NCBI GenBank assembly: GCA_025463875.1
Contig: JAODBI010000200.1
Location: 1-40,894, forward strand
Reading direction: 5' to 3'
Source: Actinomycetes bacterium
GTDB taxonomy: Bacteria; Actinomycetota; Acidimicrobiia; IMCC26256; PALSA-610
Length of the DNA: 40,894 bases
Position numbers and translations under genes: made by a program. The notes under the pieces were generated by a model. The model made no database searches and was not told the origin of the DNA. It was given only the letters and a program-made list of their open reading frames with translations. Shown here one piece after another: positions 33,091 to 40,857 of the stretch (its first letter is position 1; each line of letters begins with the position of its first letter).

Positions 33091-34386
33091 ATGACGACAA
33101 TCTTGACGAACCGGCGCAGGCACCTGGTGGGCGTACTCGCCCTGGCCACGATGGCATCGACGTGGGGTACGGCCGTCGCCACGTCGTCGTCGGCGGGTGC
33201 CGTGGCGGCACCGACCGGTGTCGCGAAGATCAATCACGTCGTGGTGATGATGCAGGAGAACCGGTCCTTCGATTCGTACTTCGCCCGGCTGCACTATCAG
33301 GGCCAACCGGCGTCGACGATCGAGCCGCTGGGAGGCAATCCCAATCCGAATGGCGGCGCGCCGATCCACCCGTTCCTGAAGACGACGCTGTGCGAGGTTG
33401 CCGACCTGAACCACTCCTGGAACGGCACGCATCAGGAATGGAGTGGCGGGACCATGCAAGGGTTCACCGCCGCGAACGTCGACCCGGCCGACCCCACCGG
33501 TAGCCGCACGATGGGCTACTACGCCAAAGGACAGCTGCCTTTCTACAACCAGATCGCGAACGACTTCTCGATCGCCGACCACTACTTCGCGTCGACCCTG
33601 ACCCAGACGTTCCCGAACCGCTTCTATCTCGTGGCGGGCACGTCCTTCGGCCACATCCGCAACGACCTGCCGCCGACGGGCGGCTTCACTCAGCCGACCG
33701 TATTTCGTGAGCTCGACGCCGCGCACGTGAGCTGGAAGGTCTACACCGCCAGCGGATTCTCCGAGAACGTGCTCTTTGCCGATGTGCAACAACACTCGGC
33801 CAACCTCCTGCCCCTCTCGCAGTACTTCACCGACGCCACCAACGGCACGCTGCCCCAGGTGTCGTTCGTCGATTCCAATCCGTTCGGCAAGGTGAACGTC
33901 GAGAGCGACGAGCACCCGCCGGCGAACGTGCAAGTCGGCGAGAAGTTCGTGCACGACATCGCCCAGGCACTCGTCAACAGCCCGAACTGGTCGTCATCGG
34001 CGATGTTCCTCACCTACGACGAGCACGGCGGTTTCTACGATCACGTTGCACCGCCCGCCGCCCCGATCCCGGACAACATTCCGCCGATGCTGCAGCCGGG
34101 CGACACACCCGCCGCGTTCGACCGGTACGGCATCCGGGTGCCGACGATCGTCATCTCGCCCTACGCCAAGAAGCACTTTGTGTCGCACACGGTCTACGAC
34201 CACACGTCCATTCTGCGATTCATCGAAACCCGTTTCGGGCTGCCGTCGCTCACGAATCGCGACGCGCACGCCGACCCCATGCTCGGCATGTTCGACTTCA
34301 GTGCCATCCAGCGAGCACATCCGATACTCGCCAACGCACCCGTCGACCCCACCGGCGTCAACAAGTGCTCGGCGATGCATCCGTAG
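33091..34386 (+). CDS. Secreted phosphoesterase (phospholipase C/acid phosphatase family)
   Basis: A 431-residue exported hydrolase. The signal region (TNRRRHLVGVLALATMA) has consecutive arginines and may be Tat-dependent, cleaved near residue 38. The catalytic start of the family is MMQENRSFDSYF (about 53-64). Further motifs are DLNHSWNGTHQEWSGG, IADHYFASTLTQTFPNR, SDEHPPANVQVGE and LTYDEHGGFYDHVAPP, all characteristic of the phosphatidylcholine-hydrolysing PLC and AcpA group. It lacks the extra C-terminal domains of long PLCs, so it is nearer the compact acid phosphatase or phosphoesterase forms. It may release phosphate from lipids or other organophosphates outside the cell; substrate not determinable. 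Confidence 0.92.
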   Translation: MTTILTNRRRHLVGVLALATMASTWGTAVATSSSAGAVAAPTGVAKINHVVVMMQENRSFDSYFARLHYQGQPASTIEPLGGNPNPNGGAPIHPFLKTTLCEVADLNHSWNGTHQEWSGGTMQGFTAANVDPADPTGSRTMGYYAKGQLPFYNQIANDFSIADHYFASTLTQTFPNRFYLVAGTSFGHIRNDLPPTGGFTQPTVFRELDAAHVSWKVYTASGFSENVLFADVQQHSANLLPLSQYFTDATNGTLPQVSFVDSNPFGKVNVESDEHPPANVQVGEKFVHDIAQALVNSPNWSSSAMFLTYDEHGGFYDHVAPPAAPIPDNIPPMLQPGDTPAAFDRYGIRVPTIVISPYAKKHFVSHTVYDHTSILRFIETRFGLPSLTNRDAHADPMLGMFDFSAIQRAHPILANAPVDPTGVNKCSAMHP

Positions 34387-34431
34387 CAAGCCGCCGGCCG
34401 GGAACCACCGCCGGCTCCTCTCGACGTTCAA

Positions 34432-34458
34432 ACCGACGGGTCTCCGGGGCCCGTCGGT
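34432..34458. terminator. Hairpin after the phosphoesterase gene
   Basis: ACCGACGGG (34432-34440) pairs perfectly with CCCGTCGGT (34450-34458) around a 9-nt loop, 46 nt after the phosphoesterase stop and 38 nt beyond the stop of the convergent small membrane peptide gene. It could end transcription from both sides. There is no U-tract, as is common in GC-rich actinobacteria, so function is not proven. Confidence 0.5.
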
Positions 34459-34495
34459 CGCGTGCTCCACGGCGACTTGCGCGCCGCTATGAGGA

Positions 34496-34570
34496 TCAGG
34501 CGCGCCTGGCCAAGTAGATGATGAGCACGACGATGAGGATGACGACGAGCGTTCCCACCCCGATGTACAT
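34496..34570 (-). CDS. 24-residue single-helix membrane peptide
   Basis: Start ATG at 34570 with AAAGGGA 5 nt upstream. The peptide begins MYIGVGTLVVILIVV and ends LIIYLARRA: almost entirely Val, Ile and Leu, with a positive end, so it would insert as one helix with its C-terminus inside. Tiny hydrophobic proteins of this shape are common but often missed in actinobacterial genomes. The coding assignment is supported by the ribosome binding site, the clean helix and the flanking hairpins. Function is unknown. Confidence 0.55.
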   Translation of the reverse strand: MYIGVGTLVVILIVVLIIYLARRA

Positions 34571-34944
34571 GGCAGTCCCTTTCGTCGGTATGGCTGCACG
34601 AACGCAGTGGGTCAATTCCTCGAGACGCCCCGGCGGGGCCACCGACCGGGGCGTCTCCGAGTGACGGAAGGTCGAACGGCGGGGAGGTCCGCCTTCCACG
34701 CAAGCCATCCGTGGCCGCGCTCGTTCAGTACCCACCGCGCGTCGGCTCATGCCGGCGCGAGCGAAGGTCGCGGCAACCTTTACCGTTCGCTAACCGTCGG
34801 GAGGCGGAGCCGGTCTCGCGGCACTGGGCAGTGGGGTGGACCGCGAGACCGGTCCAACAATCAGTGAACGTTCGAACGCGTGCTGAGGAAACGGGTCATG
34901 CACCGTTTGTTTCGCAAGACGTCGACGACGCTCGCGAGGTGGCG
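34571..34944. other. Intergenic region with two perfect 12-bp hairpins
   Basis: No convincing gene. Hairpin 1 pairs GAGACGCCCCGG (34622-34633) with CCGGGGCGTCTC (34646-34657) around a 12-nt loop. Hairpin 2 pairs CCGGTCTCGCGG (34810-34821) with CCGCGAGACCGG (34841-34852) around a 19-nt loop. Hairpin 1 lies upstream of the 24-residue peptide gene on its strand; hairpin 2 lies about 90 nt beyond the end of the membrane protein gene that stops at 34945, and could terminate that operon. The remaining sequence shows nothing else clear. Confidence 0.5.
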
Positions 34945-35784
34945 CTAGCCGCGACCGACGTCGGCGGCGGCGGCACGGCCGTCGCTCTGCATGTTGCTCT
35001 TGTCGTTGTTCTGTTGGTTGCTCGTGGGCCCTGCGGTGGCTTCGGGGTTGGTCTTGGCGTTTCCGCTTTCGCCGGCTGACTGTTCACCGTTGCTCTTGTC
35101 CTCGGCCGACCCTTTGACCTCGGACTTCCTGGCGCCGTGCTCGGCTCCGTTCGCCGCGCTGTCGTCGGCAGCGTTCCCGTCGTTGTCCCCGGTGCCGTTC
35201 CCGGCATCGACCGTTTCCTTCGGCCACGAGGGAGCAGCCGGTTCCGACCACGACGCGTTCGCTTGCGGCGTATGCACCTGCAGGGCGGCGCTCGAACCAA
35301 GCGACTGCCCGGCCGCGGATCCGGGGCCGGCCGGCGAGCTCATCTTCGCGGTTGCGTTTCGCCGGACCGGCTCGGTCAGTGTCGCGACCGTCCGGGACGG
35401 GGCGGGGCGGGGCATACCGGTACGCGGCGGCAGCGGCGGGCGCGGGCGCTCGGGGGCATCCGGCAGAGGGATACCGACAAGACGCGTCGCCCGACTGAGC
35501 CAGTGCTGAGCCGTTGCAGGCAGAGCGCCGGCGGCCGCGAAGCCGCTCGTCAGACTCAACGCGACGGCGACCACGCATGTCGCAACGACGTTCGGCGCCC
35601 GGTGCTTCGGTCGAGGATCACCGGGTTCGGGGGCGAGCTCCCAATCGAACTCGAGCGACATCGCCTCGAGATGCCGGGCTGCGAGCTCGTCGTCGACGGG
35701 CAGGAGCAGCTCCCGACGCAGCGCTACCGCGACTCGCTCGGCGTCGCGCCCACGGCCCGGATCGGACGAGCGGAGGAACGTCAT
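34945..35784 (-). CDS. Single-pass membrane protein co-translated with an ECF sigma factor (possible anti-sigma factor)
   Basis: A 279-residue protein. The N-terminal cytoplasmic domain (about 1-62) carries VAVALRRELLLPVDDELAARHLEAM, which resembles helices of short anti-sigma domains but lacks the HxxxCxxC zinc motif. One membrane helix lies at about 66-88 (NVVATCVVAVALSLTSGFAA). The long outer part is Pro/Arg-rich and then Asn/Gly/Asp/Ser-rich low complexity (about 180-279), so it is probably unstructured and extracytoplasmic. The ATG at 35784 overlaps the sigma factor stop (ATGA). Position and topology suggest an anti-sigma factor; sequence alone does not prove it. Confidence 0.75.
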   Translation of the reverse strand: MTFLRSSDPGRGRDAERVAVALRRELLLPVDDELAARHLEAMSLEFDWELAPEPGDPRPKHRAPNVVATCVVAVALSLTSGFAAAGALPATAQHWLSRATRLVGIPLPDAPERPRPPLPPRTGMPRPAPSRTVATLTEPVRRNATAKMSSPAGPGSAAGQSLGSSAALQVHTPQANASWSEPAAPSWPKETVDAGNGTGDNDGNAADDSAANGAEHGARKSEVKGSAEDKSNGEQSAGESGNAKTNPEATAGPTSNQQNNDKSNMQSDGRAAAADVGRG

Positions 35785-36350
35785 GAGACCGTCTCGCCAT
35801 CGACGAGTCGGACGAGCGCGGCAAGAGCACGCCGATGCAACGTCTTCACGGCCCCCTGCGATTTGTTCAACACCGCCGCCGTGTCAGCCACCGAGAGACC
35901 GGCCACGGATCTCAGTAGGACTGCGTCACGCTGATCCGGAGTCAGGCGCGCGAGCGCGCGCACGGCGGGCGCGGCATCCAGCCGCCCGATCACACGGTCA
36001 TAAGTATCGTCTTCGAGGATGTCGACTCCGGGCGTGAAGGAGGCACCGATCGTCCGGTGCGCGTCCTTCCGCAGGACATCGATGAGTCGATGGTGCGCGA
36101 TCGTGAACACCCATCGGCGAAACGCGGTCTCGTCGCCCTCGAAGCCGGCGAGACCACGGATCACGGCCAGAAATACGTCGCCGGCCAGGTCCTCGGCGTC
36201 GCATGCGCCGGCGCCGCGCAGGTACCCGAGCACACCCGGCGAGAGGTCGGCGTAGAGCTCGCCGATGGCATCCGCGTCACCGCATCGGGCGCGGCCGATG
36301 CGGGTGTCACCGATTCCCGAGAGGAGCGCTGGGTGTTCCCGGCCGAGCAT
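35781..36350 (-). CDS. ECF-type RNA polymerase sigma factor
   Basis: A 189-residue sigma-70 family protein. Region 2 includes DAEDLAGDVFLAVIRGL and RRWVFTIAHHRLIDVLRK, the core-binding and -10-recognition helices; region 4 includes LARLTPDQRDAVLLRSVAGL and NKSQGAVKTLHRRALAAL, the -35-recognition helix-turn-helix. The ATG at 36350 fits the domain start; the frame is open to 36650 but the extra part is Arg/Ser-rich shadow. The overlapping downstream membrane protein is probably its partner. Possible targets include its own promoter and the secreted protein genes at 37-41 kb, which is inference. Confidence 0.92.
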   Translation of the reverse strand: MLGREHPALLSGIGDTRIGRARCGDADAIGELYADLSPGVLGYLRGAGACDAEDLAGDVFLAVIRGLAGFEGDETAFRRWVFTIAHHRLIDVLRKDAHRTIGASFTPGVDILEDDTYDRVIGRLDAAPAVRALARLTPDQRDAVLLRSVAGLSVADTAAVLNKSQGAVKTLHRRALAALVRLVDGETVS

Positions 36351-36857
36351 CACCGCGGGAATCCCAGACCTTGATCGATCAGACAACCCTGCGCATCCAT
36401 GCGCGCGTACCCCACGTCTGTCCGTCCCCCTCGATCGCGGAGTGCAAAGTCCCAACCCGGCCGCCCGGCCGTGGTGGGCCGCAGTCGACGAATCTCTCTG
36501 CATCCCTCGGCTGCACGACGCGCATCCGTTCACAGTTTGCGCATCGATCTTTGCCATTGTCCAAGCGCCGCGCCGGCGGGCTGCCCGATTTGGTGCACCG
36601 TGAACCGTCGGACCGTTTCCGACCGCGCCAGCCTCCTTCAGTGCGCGCATGAACCGGTTCGCCGTGGGTACGGCACGAGCGCGGGCCCGTGTGGGTTCGC
36701 ACGGACGGCTGGGCCGCTCGCCCGCGAGTCGACCGCCGACCTCGGGACGCCCCGGCCTCGGGCATGAGCCGGGGCGTTCCCGCGCGCCGGCTGCTCCGCG
36801 TTGCTCTCATGCCGCTGCCAACAGACTCCCTGTCTACGGATGACGTGTGCGACCTGT
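36351..36857. other. Intergenic region upstream of the sigma factor, with one hairpin
   Basis: No gene is supported. A hairpin pairs GGGACGCCCCGGC (36744-36756) with GCCGGGGCGTTCCC (36768-36781), with one bulged base; its core is the same as the hairpin at 34622-34657. CTGTCTACGG occurs twice (36831-36840 and 36854-36863). TGATCGATCA, a 10-bp palindrome at about 36373-36382, lies just upstream of the sigma gene and could be part of its control. The minus-strand promoter for the sigma gene must lie here, but I cannot pick it with confidence. Confidence 0.4.
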
Positions 36858-36956
36858 CTACGGCGTCGTCGCGCCGTTGATCCCCCAGTTGAAATAGATG
36901 TGCGTGTGGAGCCCCGACTGCAAGCTCAGGGAGTGCGTGAGGTCCACGAAATGCAT
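36858..36956 (-). pseudogene. 32-codon coding-like fragment just after a secreted protein gene
   Basis: After the TGA of the gene ending at 37005, the same frame stays open for 48 codons to a TAG at 36858. The last 32 codons, from an ATG at 36956, begin MHFVDLTHSLSLQSG and end FNWGINGATTP; 30 of 32 have G or C in third position, as in real genes here. The 16 codons between are not biased. It looks like the end of a decayed gene or a tiny ORF; no good ribosome binding site is seen and the family is not recognised. Confidence 0.35.
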
Positions 36957-37004
36957 ACACCGAAAGGTGCCTCGCGCGTCAGCCGGTCGGAGACGAGTTC
37001 GCGC

Positions 37005-38171
37005 TCAGCAGGGCGCAGCGGACGTTCTGAACGTCCCATTGCTCGAGAACCATCCGTTGGCACCGAGGCTCGGCGACGAGTGGTAGAACCAGCTGAAGAA
37101 GGCCAGCTCCTGCAGGTGGTACTTCTTGCCATTGAGCGTGTCGGTGATCCCCGTGCCGGTCAAGGGGTCGCCGACCTCCAGGTTGAACTGGCAGCCCGCA
37201 ACCTGACCGATGTTGCCCCACGGCTTCGTCGGGTTGGTGCCGATGGGATCGTTCATCCACTCACCGACCTCGTGCGCCAGGATCGACGTGTCGGCGATAC
37301 TCCCGAAGTCGCCGGTGTTGTCGTACATCGACACGCCGTAGGTCTGCAGCTGGCTCGCGTTTGGGATCGCGTTGTGGTAGCCGAGCACACAGCAGTTACT
37401 GGTACTGCCGATGTACTCGACGACATTGCCGAGCAGGAAGAGCGGGAACGTCGTCGTGGCCGCGGATCCGAGTGTGGCGGTGATGTAGTGCTGGATCTGA
37501 CCGTCGAGGTAGTTGATCTCCACCGCCCCGAGCTTGCGGTTGCCGCACACCGTCGTGCTCTCGGCCGCGTCGGCGGTAGGGACGTGCAGCACGAGGGCCG
37601 CGTGCGTCTTGAGTGCCAGCTTCACGTGGTAACCGGGGTTGATGCCGTTCGGCTTCGTCTGGCGGTAGAACTCGCCCCGTTGAAAGGCGTCGATGTACTG
37701 ACCCGTGCCCACGCTTGTAGGGCCGAACTTCCAGGGCTGGGCAACGAAGATGGGCGAGTTCCGGGCTCGGGTCAGCGCGCTCTGCGAATCGCACGAGTCG
37801 ATCACCGCCGGGTTCCACGTGTCGCCGTTCGAGAATTTGATGACGACCGGTATCAGCGTGGTACTGACCGTGGTGCTCGGCTGGGTCTGGGCAACGAACG
37901 GGTTCTTGCCAACCATCGAGTAGCGGAACGTCGAAGTGCCGTCGCGCACGGAGGCCGTGAACATCGGGATCGACGCGCTCGCGGCCGCCTGCGCGTTGAG
38001 CGATGCGGCCTGGCCCGAGGTTCGCGTCGGTGTCCAGTCGAGACGGACATGCTTCACCGTGATCTTGCCGATGCGCGCCGGCCCGGCGAGCGCCGGGCGA
38101 GCCGCGAACGGGATGCCCGCGACCGCACTCACGAGCATCGCAACTGTGGTGGCCTTCAAGAATCGTGACAC
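37005..38171 (-). CDS. Secreted protein with an HEVGE motif (possible metallopeptidase-like)
   Basis: A 388-residue exported protein with signal peptide 1-29 (LVSAVAGIPFAARPALA before the cut). The mature part is beta-rich. ILAHEVGEWMNDP (H300, E301, E304) resembles the HExxE-like sites of secreted proteins of the HEIAE(A/T)xTDP kind, where His and Glu may bind zinc. It has several Cys (VIDSCD, NCCVLG, AGCQF, final APC) that could form disulfides in an exported protein. The end NGTFRTSAAPC appears natural. The start ATG at 38171 has only a weak ribosome binding site (GAGG 13-14 nt upstream). Catalytic activity is not established. It lies 50 nt downstream of another secreted protein gene on the same strand. 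Confidence 0.8.
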   Translation of the reverse strand: MSRFLKATTVAMLVSAVAGIPFAARPALAGPARIGKITVKHVRLDWTPTRTSGQAASLNAQAAASASIPMFTASVRDGTSTFRYSMVGKNPFVAQTQPSTTVSTTLIPVVIKFSNGDTWNPAVIDSCDSQSALTRARNSPIFVAQPWKFGPTSVGTGQYIDAFQRGEFYRQTKPNGINPGYHVKLALKTHAALVLHVPTADAAESTTVCGNRKLGAVEINYLDGQIQHYITATLGSAATTTFPLFLLGNVVEYIGSTSNCCVLGYHNAIPNASQLQTYGVSMYDNTGDFGSIADTSILAHEVGEWMNDPIGTNPTKPWGNIGQVAGCQFNLEVGDPLTGTGITDTLNGKKYHLQELAFFSWFYHSSPSLGANGWFSSNGTFRTSAAPC

Positions 38172-38221
38172 AAGCGCCTCATTGGAAGAAGTGTCGGCAT
38201 GATTGTTTGAGGTCCTGGTGT

Positions 38222-39538
38222 CTAGTGGCCCCAGGTGGCGGTGGCGGCGTGAAGGGCATTCCCGTAGGTGCGTCCGGACGAACGACGGACCGTCCGGGTG
38301 CTGCTACTGGTTGCTGCCGCCAAGTTGGACGTACTCGCGGTACTGCGTGTCAGATCCACCACGGTCGTTTTGCCGACCTGCGTGCACGCGACGTCGCCGC
38401 ATGCGAGCGCCTTGGTGAACGCCGCCGCTTGGCCCGGGGCAAACGGGCTCGTGTTCGGGGGCAGGACCAGTCCGGTCCACGGGTGCAGTAGGCCGTTGCA
38501 GATCGGCGCGGGCACGCCAAGCGTGTCGAAGTGTCCGACCGCCACCTTGTCACCCACGATCTCGATGAGAGTTCCAAAGACATGGAGACTCCTCGCATGG
38601 GTGCAGCTGTAGGTGCCGGTGAGATGCGCCACTCCGTGCGGGTCGATGAGAGTGTGCTCGTGGACATTCAGGGCGATGCTCGGAGCATCGTCGATGTGGA
38701 GCCTCAGCGTGCCGCCGCCACCACCAAAGGCGTCGAAGACCATGATGTAGTACGTGGTCCCCGGCGTCAGATTGGCGGAGACGAAGAATAGACCGCATGA
38801 CACAGTCGTCAACGCACCAGGTGTGCCTTTGGCGATGAGGACACCCGCGAAGTAGTCGCTCGCGGAAGCGTCGACGAAGATGTTGTGGTGGTTCGGTCCG
38901 GGCCTGAACCTGTACCAAACGCTGTTTCCCGTTGCCGGTGCACCGCAGCTTGCGTTCGCCTGGGTGTCGACGGCGTCGGTCGTGGCGGTCGTCGTGTCGA
39001 GCGTGGCGCGGAACGGAAACGCGGAGACAGCGACGGCGTGGTCGATCTTGTCGTTGGGCGGCACAGGTGCGGGACCGTGGATCGAGATGTGCAGCGTGCC
39101 GCCGGAACCGGAATCGTCGAACACCAAGATGTAATACGTCTTGCCCGAGGCGGTGGCCGCCCTGGCGGTAACCGGACCGCACGACTGGGTCGTCAGCGCG
39201 CCCGGAGCACCCGTCGCGATGATGACCCCGGTGGAGTACGTGCTCCCGCTCGTGTCGACCCCGAGAACCGTGTCACTAGGGCCGGCGGTGAACTTGTACC
39301 ACACGCTGTTGTTCGTTGCGGGGGCACCGCAAGTCTGGTTGACCTGCGCGTCGTTTGCATCGGTTGTCGCGCCCGTTGTGTCGACCGTCCGCACGAACGG
39401 CAACGCGGACACGACGGTCGCGCCGCCAATCTTGTCGTTGGGAGGTGCAACCGCCGCCGACGCAGTGCCGACGAAGCCACCGAGCCCCAACGCGACCGCG
39501 ACACACGCGAACATCGCGAGCACCCGCTTTGGCGACAT
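38222..39538 (-). CDS. Secreted protein with two tandem PPNDKI-type beta domains
   Basis: A 438-residue exported protein: signal peptide about 1-29 (FVGTASAAVA), then two homologous domains starting PPNDKIGGATVVSALPF (about 32) and PPNDKIDHAVAVSAFPF (about 161). Each contains a DTT.ATTDA stretch, a CGAPAT.NSVWY segment, and a TYYI(L/M)VFD strand, resembling PPC-like beta-sandwich domains of secreted bacterial proteins. A third region (about 285-380, LNVHEHTLIDPHGVAHLTG to CNGLLHP) with paired Cys and a Ser/Thr-rich tail completes it. The ATG at 39538 has GGGGGGA 6 nt upstream. Probably a surface-binding or matrix protein; no enzyme motif is visible. Confidence 0.82.
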   Translation of the reverse strand: MSPKRVLAMFACVAVALGLGGFVGTASAAVAPPNDKIGGATVVSALPFVRTVDTTGATTDANDAQVNQTCGAPATNNSVWYKFTAGPSDTVLGVDTSGSTYSTGVIIATGAPGALTTQSCGPVTARAATASGKTYYILVFDDSGSGGTLHISIHGPAPVPPNDKIDHAVAVSAFPFRATLDTTTATTDAVDTQANASCGAPATGNSVWYRFRPGPNHHNIFVDASASDYFAGVLIAKGTPGALTTVSCGLFFVSANLTPGTTYYIMVFDAFGGGGGTLRLHIDDAPSIALNVHEHTLIDPHGVAHLTGTYSCTHARSLHVFGTLIEIVGDKVAVGHFDTLGVPAPICNGLLHPWTGLVLPPNTSPFAPGQAAAFTKALACGDVACTQVGKTTVVDLTRSTASTSNLAAATSSSTRTVRRSSGRTYGNALHAATATWGH

Positions 39539-39841
39539 ACCAATCCCCCCGGATAATCGGCTCCCCTGAACCAGAGCCCGCTCCGCATGACGGATGACGA
39601 GGCCTGTCCGAGCATGTCACTCGGCAACTCTCTCTGCAAGGGAGGTGCGGCTCACCGCGATTCGATCCACGCAAACAACGGCGCGAGCTCGCGCCCGCAC
39701 GCGGTGGGAGTCCGCGCGAAGGCCTGCCGAAAGCGATCGGAAAGTAACGCACAGTGCCTTCCGCGCGCTCCAGGATGGGCGGCACGGCGCGCGGCCCGCA
39801 TTCACACGACGCTCGTATCGGTGCGACGTACGCGCTCAGTT
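39539..39841. other. Intergenic region between secreted protein gene and truncated gene
   Basis: No supported gene. It contains the promoter area of the minus-strand gene at 39538 (a TTATCC-like box at about 39550-39556) and a perfect 16-bp palindrome GGCGCGAGCTCGCGCC at 39680-39695 of unknown role. Any lost C-terminal part of the truncated gene at 39842-40284 is not recognisable here in any frame. Confidence 0.4.
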
Positions 39842-40284
39842 TCATACGCGCGATGCACGCACGCTTGGCGGGTTCGCGGTGACCGAACCAGTCACAGTCG
39901 CCGAGAGCTGACCGAAGACGTTCACTTTCGCGGCTGTCCCGGTGCCCGCGTCGTGGATTGCGGTGTTGAGGTTGTTCTTGGCGTCGACCTTCGCCTGGTT
40001 GACGCCGCCGGGTCGGTAATGGCCACGTTCGTGAACGACAACGCCCACGCCCCGACCGGGAACGGCAATAACGCCGCGAACGTGACGATGATGATGGTGA
40101 GTTGGCCACCGCTGAACGGTCCCAATCCTCTGCCTTCGCGCCGATGCCGTTCCCCGGCACCGGCCTCGCAGGAGAGTTCGGTCGATCGCGTCTGATCGAC
40201 TCCTTCGGTGCGGCATTTCGGCCGTCCTTCCCGCGGCCGAGCCGCGTCAAGCGGATTGCTCCCAACGGGCGCGCTCCAGTGCAT
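39842..40284 (-). pseudogene. Frameshifted and truncated single-pass exported protein
   Basis: Two minus-strand frames carry one protein. The first (40284-40012) has LGPFSGGQLTIIIVTFAALL and FPVGAWALSFTNVAITDP, a membrane anchor followed by a conserved motif; the second (40009-39842) continues GGVNQAKVDAKNNLNTAIHD, AGTGTAAKVNVFGQLSATVT and ends in SVRASRV. Joined at DP-GGVNQ they match a family of actinobacterial surface proteins in which this sequence is continuous. One base is missing between 40011 and 40004, in the GC-run CCGGCGGC. The family normally goes on for 100 or more residues, so the 3' part is lost too. A sequencing error could explain the shift but not the truncation. The start is uncertain. 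Confidence 0.65.
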
Positions 40285-40362
40285 CGCTAGGCAACGCTTC
40301 TCGAATCAAGCTGTACCGCGACCAATTCCTCCGATGGCGAGTTTTCATTGCGTGGCGGGCGG

Positions 40363-40857
40363 TCAGCCTTGACAGAGGAGCCGACCGGTGAGCTGGCCGC
40401 CGCCCGCACCGTCCGGGGCGTAGCTGCCGGTGCTGGTGCCGGTTCCGGTCAGCCGCCGTAGGTCATCGGTGCCGAGCGCCGGGATGACCCATCTGCCCTG
40501 CGCCGTTCCGGATGGTTCGATGGTCTCGTGGGTGAAGACGGTGAAGGTGCCGGTACCACAACCCTCGACGGCGCCTTCGAACAGTTCGCTGATGTCGACG
40601 GTCACCGTGCCCGAAGGAGCCACGAGGAATCGGTAGACATAGTGGGAGGTGCCTAACCATCCGCCGGCGTAGGTGGCAGCGCCTTCGGCGGTTCCGTGAC
40701 AGGTCGACGGCGCCGATGCGAGAACGCAGCGGAAGCTGGTGATGGTGTCGGGCCCTCCGGTGTAGGTGGCGGCGAGAGCAATGTGCCGGGGGGTCGCCGC
40801 GCTGGCAGCGGACGCAGGGGTCAACATCACCGCGACAATGATGGCCGTCGCCAACAT
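40363..40857 (-). CDS. Short secreted protein of unknown function (N-terminus may lie beyond the window)
   Basis: A protein of 164 residues or more. The hydrophobic signal region (MLATAIIVAVMLTPASA, cut near ASA-ASA) is followed by a beta-rich, Gly/Thr-rich domain with three or four Cys (FRCVLASAPSTC, EGCGTGTF, final LLCQG), suggesting disulfides. The ATG at 40857 leaves no positive charge before the hydrophobic core; the frame stays open to 40894 and adds Arg residues (RTAIRNAG), so the true start is probably upstream and outside the window. Family not recognised. It belongs to the group of exported proteins at the right end. Confidence 0.7.
   Translation of the reverse strand: MLATAIIVAVMLTPASAASAATPRHIALAATYTGGPDTITSFRCVLASAPSTCHGTAEGAATYAGGWLGTSHYVYRFLVAPSGTVTVDISELFEGAVEGCGTGTFTVFTHETIEPSGTAQGRWVIPALGTDDLRRLTGTGTSTGSYAPDGAGGGQLTGRLLCQG

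Follow-up and report, generated by a model that had tools for sequence, protein, structure and literature searches.

A zinc-free membrane protein, probably an anti-sigma factor, is paired with an ECF sigma factor across Actinomycetota

The gene pair described here lies on contig JAODBI010000200.1 of an acidimicrobial Actinomycetes bacterium (assembly GCA_025463875.1), a stretch of 40,894 nucleotides that was analysed at full length and is called the window. It encodes a sigma factor of the extracytoplasmic function (ECF) type and, overlapping its 3′ end, a membrane protein without a zinc motif, called the partner. We consider the partner probably to be a zinc-free membrane anti-sigma factor that holds the adjoining sigma factor in the way RsbN holds BldN, the developmental sigma factor of Streptomyces, with release by proteolysis; the anti-sigma role is supported by analogy and by conservation. 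The pair is no one-off but a member of a family that is widespread in Actinomycetota and apparently unnamed. Since zinc-free membrane anti-sigma factors are already known, the undescribed part seems to be the widespread family, its conserved juxtamembrane region and the short form with two helices. This gives widespread actinobacterial ECF partners a recognisable signature, consisting of a helical N terminus, a membrane span, in most of them a motif of the GxAAAGxLPxPxQ type, and a low-complexity tail. It also makes testable how relatives of BldN are controlled outside Streptomyces, and whether it is signal peptidase that switches their release.

The sigma factor and its partner

The pair and the parts of the partner are as follows.

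35781..36350, minus strand: ECF sigma factor, 189 residues, regions 2 and 4, ATG at 36350
34945..35784, minus strand: putative membrane-tethered anti-sigma factor (partner), 279 residues, ATG at 35784, stop at 34945
35707..35760, minus strand: predicted cytoplasmic helix A of the partner, residues 9-26, motif LRxEL
35638..35691, minus strand: predicted cytoplasmic helix B, residues 32-49, motif HLxAM
35536..35598, minus strand: membrane helix, residues 63-83, from hydropathy and AlphaFold2
35530..35544, minus strand: GxAxA, residues 81-85, where the membrane helix ends on the outer side; similar to a signal peptidase I site, from an alignment of 12 relatives
35476..35517, minus strand: predicted outer juxtamembrane helix (AlphaFold2), residues 90-103, with a motif of the LPxPxQ type
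34948..35469, minus strand: low-complexity outer tail, residues 106-279, probably disordered, from composition and AlphaFold2 coil

The original prediction of an ECF sigma factor overlapping a membrane partner without the zinc motif was borne out. Pfam matches Sigma70_r4_2 (1.2e-13) and Sigma70_r2 (3.6e-11) in the sigma factor, which has only regions 2 and 4 and about 190 residues, as expected of an ECF sigma factor. The stop of its gene and the ATG of the partner gene share four bases (ATGA), and the two genes are probably co-transcribed as one two-gene unit. An orthologue of the sigma factor with 71% identity is present in a genome of the same genus, and the genome that carries the window pair (4.6 Mb, 88% complete) has a paralogous pair, L002, of identical layout.

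The partner has no match in Pfam and NCBIfam at E<=1, which includes the described anti-sigma models, and none in a search of the Protein Data Bank (PDB). HxxxCxxC, the mark of zinc-binding anti-sigma factors, is absent from it; its sole cysteine is residue 70, within the membrane span. Hydropathy gives a single hydrophobic span (residues 66-84). The AlphaFold2 model, built with 12 relatives, has a mean predicted local distance difference test score (pLDDT) of 58 and consists of four helices (9-26, 32-49, 63-83 in the membrane, and 90-103) followed by coil. Helix A falls in a region of pLDDT about 75-77 (residues 11-30) and its R23 is invariant across the 12 aligned relatives; in helix B (pLDDT about 69-86) H38 is invariant and L39 and A41 are nearly so. 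The short cytoplasmic part and the one membrane helix that had been predicted from the letters are confirmed, but the cytoplasmic part is richer in features than described. An invariant L88-P89 stands just before the outer juxtamembrane helix. The tail, predicted to be long and disordered, is probably so: pLDDT is 65-70 over residues 101-130 and about 44-55 from residue 131 on. Its description as rich in Asn, Gly and Asp does not fit the whole, which is mainly Ala (17%), Pro (11.5%), Gly (11%) and Ser (11%) with 7.5% Asn, but does fit the last 99 residues, where Asn (11%), Gly (14%) and Asp (9%) are enriched.

The pair is widespread in Actinomycetota

When 58 genomes of the order were searched with the sigma factor, 28 of them had matches at E<=1e-22, 41 in total. 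Partners, chosen by eye from the listed open reading frames (ORFs), were counted for 33 of these 41 matches; the close BldN homologue L057 was examined in addition to the 33. A partner with a hydrophobic span lies directly 3′ of the sigma gene in 25 of the 33 loci, and 17 of these 25 pairs have the exact four-base overlap. In genomes of named organisms, the best 80 of at least 419 confirmed sigma relatives were scanned and the partner was picked automatically. A downstream ORF was found in 78 loci, with a hydrophobic window in 76 and, after exclusion of L100 and L152 as unrelated picks, a partner in 74 of 80; the gap was 0 or less in 53 loci and the overlap exactly four bases in 37, figures that are biased in this direction because the automatic pick preferred ORFs with a hydrophobic window and gaps of -4 or -1. 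Some of these loci repeat those from the order, for example L097 and L029, which have the same partner protein. HxxxCxxC occurs in none of the 78 downstream ORFs; among the decoys, a protein from a different ECF locus, L070, does carry this pattern, which thus turns up where it is expected. Members of the family occur in the cultured genera Jiangella, Geodermatophilus and Agromyces. None of the scanned partners has a Pfam match above cut-off, and the matches of other relatives are weak and below cut-off.

The cytoplasmic parts follow a consensus of about LDDxTADALLAG / LAxLxxxLRxxxxxP / PSxxLAAMLAxG. In most partners the span is followed by a juxtamembrane motif close to GxAAAGxLPxPxQ and then by GI.LP; among the 74 named partners, 65 have [LVIM]P no more than 40 residues past the first hydrophobic window and 41 have the closer LPxx(x)Q. 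Of the three cytoplasmic elements, the window partner and its nearest relatives retain the last two, LRxEL and HLxAM, and the first helix seems to be missing from their clade. A relative from Jiangella has three predicted cytoplasmic helices with pLDDT about 86-93, two of them just nine residues long. A profile of the three-helix relatives found nothing meaningful among solved structures (best E 0.99).

The tails are of low complexity and vary in composition between relatives. Those of L030:488-1426(-) and L167:4716-5489 are built of short repeats such as NSGNAPGHTG. A small motif, HGxxVSxVA, is common to the tails of L035, L095 and L050, where it lies near a Cys-containing stretch and is possibly a tiny outer domain. 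The partners L033:2045-3244 and L044:317-1468(-) have an extra, folded-looking C-terminal segment beyond the tail, which by eye resembles fibronectin III and has no Pfam match; from these segments the outer parts seem to be exchangeable.

A description of the family was not found in the literature covered on actinobacterial ECF sigma factors and RsbN-like anti-sigma factors (the paper on the RsbN structure and the main reclassification of ECF sigma factors excepted), and it is quite possible that the sigma family already has an ECF group number.

Sigma factor and partner diverge together

The divergence of the two proteins is correlated. Distances among 91 sigma factors were compared with those among the cytoplasmic parts of their partners, which gave r 0.72 over all 4095 comparisons and, for distant sigma factors alone (3720 comparisons), r 0.25 versus at most 0.18 in 500 permutations; shared species history is included in this correlation, uncorrected, and to that extent tells against it as an argument for the pair. 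The nearest relative of the window sigma factor and of the window partner is the same locus, L028, and L042 is nearest to both proteins of the paralogous pair L002.

Relation to BldN and RsbN

The top PDB match of the sigma factor is 6dxo_A (77 bits), the sigma factor of the BldN-RsbN complex; Streptomyces-type RsbN matches the other distinct chain at 9.4e-26, though this chain is labelled BldN in the entry. BldN is thus the closest sigma factor of solved structure, but the window sigma factor is not a BldN itself: it scores 85.5 bits with the BldN equivalog model TIGR02952, whose cut-off is 206.45. Among 42 sigma factors placed in a tree, the 26 proteins of the family form one clade (98/87) with BldN as weakly supported sister (85/44), and the window sigma factor falls outside the BldN clade. 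According to the part of PMC4255298 that we consulted, BldN orthologues proper are reported only from morphologically complex genera. A close BldN homologue (L057 / L181, G003:C563) was seen on a 3.2-kb contig of a draft genome of the same genus; it scores 204.5 bits against the cut-off of 206.45 and groups with a copy in G260, outside the window family. It may reflect contamination or transfer.

RsbN and the partner are alike in layout. Both are encoded by the gene adjoining that of the sigma factor, and both have a membrane anchor, a cytoplasmic N terminus of short helices and no zinc motif. In RsbN-type proteins the span ends in GxAxA in eight of nine cases and is followed by ALPGDxLY. The outer parts differ: RsbN has the domain DUF5667 (34.9 bits, above cut-off), whereas the window partner has a disordered tail and no Pfam match to DUF5667. 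In two relatives, L103 from Acidimicrobiales and L145 from Demequina, the family cytoplasmic domain (ranks 4 and 5 of 6981, with E 1.8e-6 and 6.5e-6) occurs together with partial matches to DUF5667 that are below cut-off (E 5.6e-4 and 4.7e-4). By eye, the top eight rows of this search with the family hidden Markov model (HMM) are four overlooked or shortened members (L105, L096, L100 and L069), which had entered the search as decoys, and the two DUF5667-type partners, each listed twice as they were repeated as longer open frames.

Several results weigh against an RsbN-like anti-sigma factor. The best E value of the family HMM with RsbN is 670, and seven of nine RsbN rows are unlisted at E<=1000. 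Profile-profile comparison (hhalign) of the cytoplasmic parts gives a probability of 0.09%, with 32 of 200 shuffles scoring equally high, and addition of the span and juxtamembrane part raises this to 1.9% over 14 columns. A Foldseek search with either model returned no solved structure of similar fold, and two cytoplasmic helices are predicted in the window partner versus three in RsbN. As to class III anti-sigma factors, judged by anchor and adjacency, the anchor is predicted and the adjoining gene is seen, but the adjoining sigma factor is merely a relative of BldN. Eight of the 33 loci from the order have no such adjacent partner, although two of these (L053 and L069) end at a contig edge. 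Of the 74 named partners, 57 have one hydrophobic window and 17 have two, which makes a single span uncertain for the family as a whole. Finally, the nearest neighbours of sigma factor and partner agree in four of ten loci compared and differ in six. As homology to the sigma-binding part of RsbN was not detectable, we do not claim membership of the RsbN class; the likeness is one of layout. The unusually fast divergence of RsbN proteins, reported in the consulted part of PMC4255298, may explain why homology was not detected.

Among other explanations, the partner could be an anti-sigma factor of class I (RseA/ChrR type) without its former zinc motif and too diverged to be recognised. Domains of this class, such as those of ChrR and RskA, would have the same role, and the sections of PMC7406223 at hand state that about 44% of them lack the zinc motif and that many are membrane-bound. 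However, the same sections describe a grip on region 2 by a fourth helix, whereas the window partner has two predicted helices and the Jiangella relative three, fewer and shorter than in class I, and no class I family matches the partner; we regard this origin as unlikely. The figure of 44%, together with the wide recurrence of the pair, is also the reason why the term "unusual" in the original prediction of an "unusual anti-sigma" is not upheld, while its anti-sigma part stands on analogy and conservation.

The partner could also be a surface sensor or co-activator, recruiting the sigma factor or serving as its scaffold without inhibiting it. This would suit the long outer tail, and the literature searched holds no experiment on any family member; the weak match of two relatives to the outer domain of RsbN-type proteins speaks against it, and we consider such a role quite improbable. 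That the two genes are functionally unrelated and merely adjacent could be argued from the eight loci of the order without a partner, but it is hardly credible given the ATGA overlap, the recurrence of the pair across distant genera and a correlated divergence that exceeds permutations.

Proposed mechanism of sigma factor release

For the membrane anti-sigma factor that we favour, we infer co-transcription of the pair, binding and inhibition of the sigma factor, and its proteolytic release. The sigma factor would be held at the membrane by the short cytoplasmic region of the partner, as BldN is sequestered at the membrane by RsbN (PMC8103513, in the portion seen). In the RsbN crystal the first two helices grip region 4 and the third grips region 2 of a second sigma factor, according to a passage of PMC7406223 that swaps the two protein names. 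By analogy, helix A would grip region 4 and helix B region 2. An envelope signal would then act on the outer tail or the juxtamembrane helix, a first cut would fall near the outer end of the membrane helix and a second would be made by a site-2 protease, and cleavage of the partner would free the sigma factor.

A possible position of the first cut is the GxAxA that closes the membrane helix on its outer side, a motif whose G81, A83 and A85 are nearly invariant across the 12 aligned relatives. For a wider count, 99 proteins were taken, of which 69 anchored and 30 did not; after removal of eight near-copies 61 anchored relatives remained, and GxAxA is present in 39 and AxA in 48 of these. One of the two DUF5667-type relatives has it as well. 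The pattern suggests release by signal peptidase, but Ala is frequent throughout the spans (about 16-49% per column upstream of GxAxA), so the resemblance to a signal peptidase I site is a hint only. A precedent is offered by two membrane-bound anti-sigma factors in Bacillus, RsiV and RsiP: signal peptidase makes the first cut, in the outer part, and a site-2 protease follows (PMC8844934, in the excerpt available); the window partner, with a membrane helix that ends in GxAxA and a further helix behind it, resembles them in the layout of the site alone. A site-2 protease is encoded in the window genome and likewise in 14 of 14 control genomes. In the literature searched we found no report on how RsbN is released.

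It is tempting to extend this to one large family of zinc-free actinobacterial anti-sigma factors with a single juxtamembrane switch, in which GxAxA, as a signal peptidase I site, is capped by the LPxPxQ helix and the outer parts are freely swapped, with a two-helix clamp in the window clade and RsbN as an outlying member that works in the same way; we rate this extension as doubtful.

Flanks and neighbouring genes

Two hairpins flank the pair.

34810..34852, no strand assigned: hairpin 3′ of the partner gene, possible terminator without a T run; perfect arms of 12 bp, -31.7 kcal/mol, z -5.2
36744..36780, no strand assigned: hairpin between the gene for a secreted protein (37005-38171) and the sigma gene, possible terminator without a T run; arms of 13 bp (92%), -35.3 kcal/mol, z -2.7

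Such GC hairpins on both sides suggest, without proving it, a separate two-gene transcript; a terminator scan listed neither of them. The hairpin at 36744-36780 is related to another at 34622-34657, both being GC-rich and intergenic, on either side of the pair, with arms GACGCCCCGG / CCGGGGCGTC; they may be terminators or a small repeat. An ORF of 24 nearly all-hydrophobic residues, MYIGVGTLVVILIVVLIIYLARRA, lies at 34496-34570 on the minus strand, in the stretch that separates the partner gene from the convergent phosphoesterase gene 33091-34386 (Pfam 1.3e-81); it is the end of a longer ORF, 34496-34750.

The idea that the pair controls the nearby secreted proteins (37005-40857) found no backing in a shared promoter motif or a conserved neighbourhood. 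An exhaustive two-box search of the four regions named for it, upstream of 36350, 38171, 39538 and 40284, reached a best score of 29, compared with 29-31 in 20 random sets. A sigma-70 consensus scan of 34300-37100 gave no promoter, and a count of 5-mer/4-mer pairs in 69 upstream regions of sigma genes (80 minus near-copies) gave mostly GC-rich pairs that were equally frequent on the reverse strand. Six neighbouring window proteins had no tblastn match (E<1e-3) in 178 other loci, which are mostly sigma loci and in many cases about 3.5 kb long. G003, a relative from the same genus, has different genes next to its sigma gene; G007 likewise has a gene for a secreted-looking protein upstream of the sigma gene.

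Gene 37005-38171 begins about 50 bases past the end of gene 38222-39538 and may therefore have no promoter of its own. Both genes are on the minus strand and encode adjacent secreted-looking proteins with no significant family match; by eye, the product of 38222-39538 resembles two copies of one domain.
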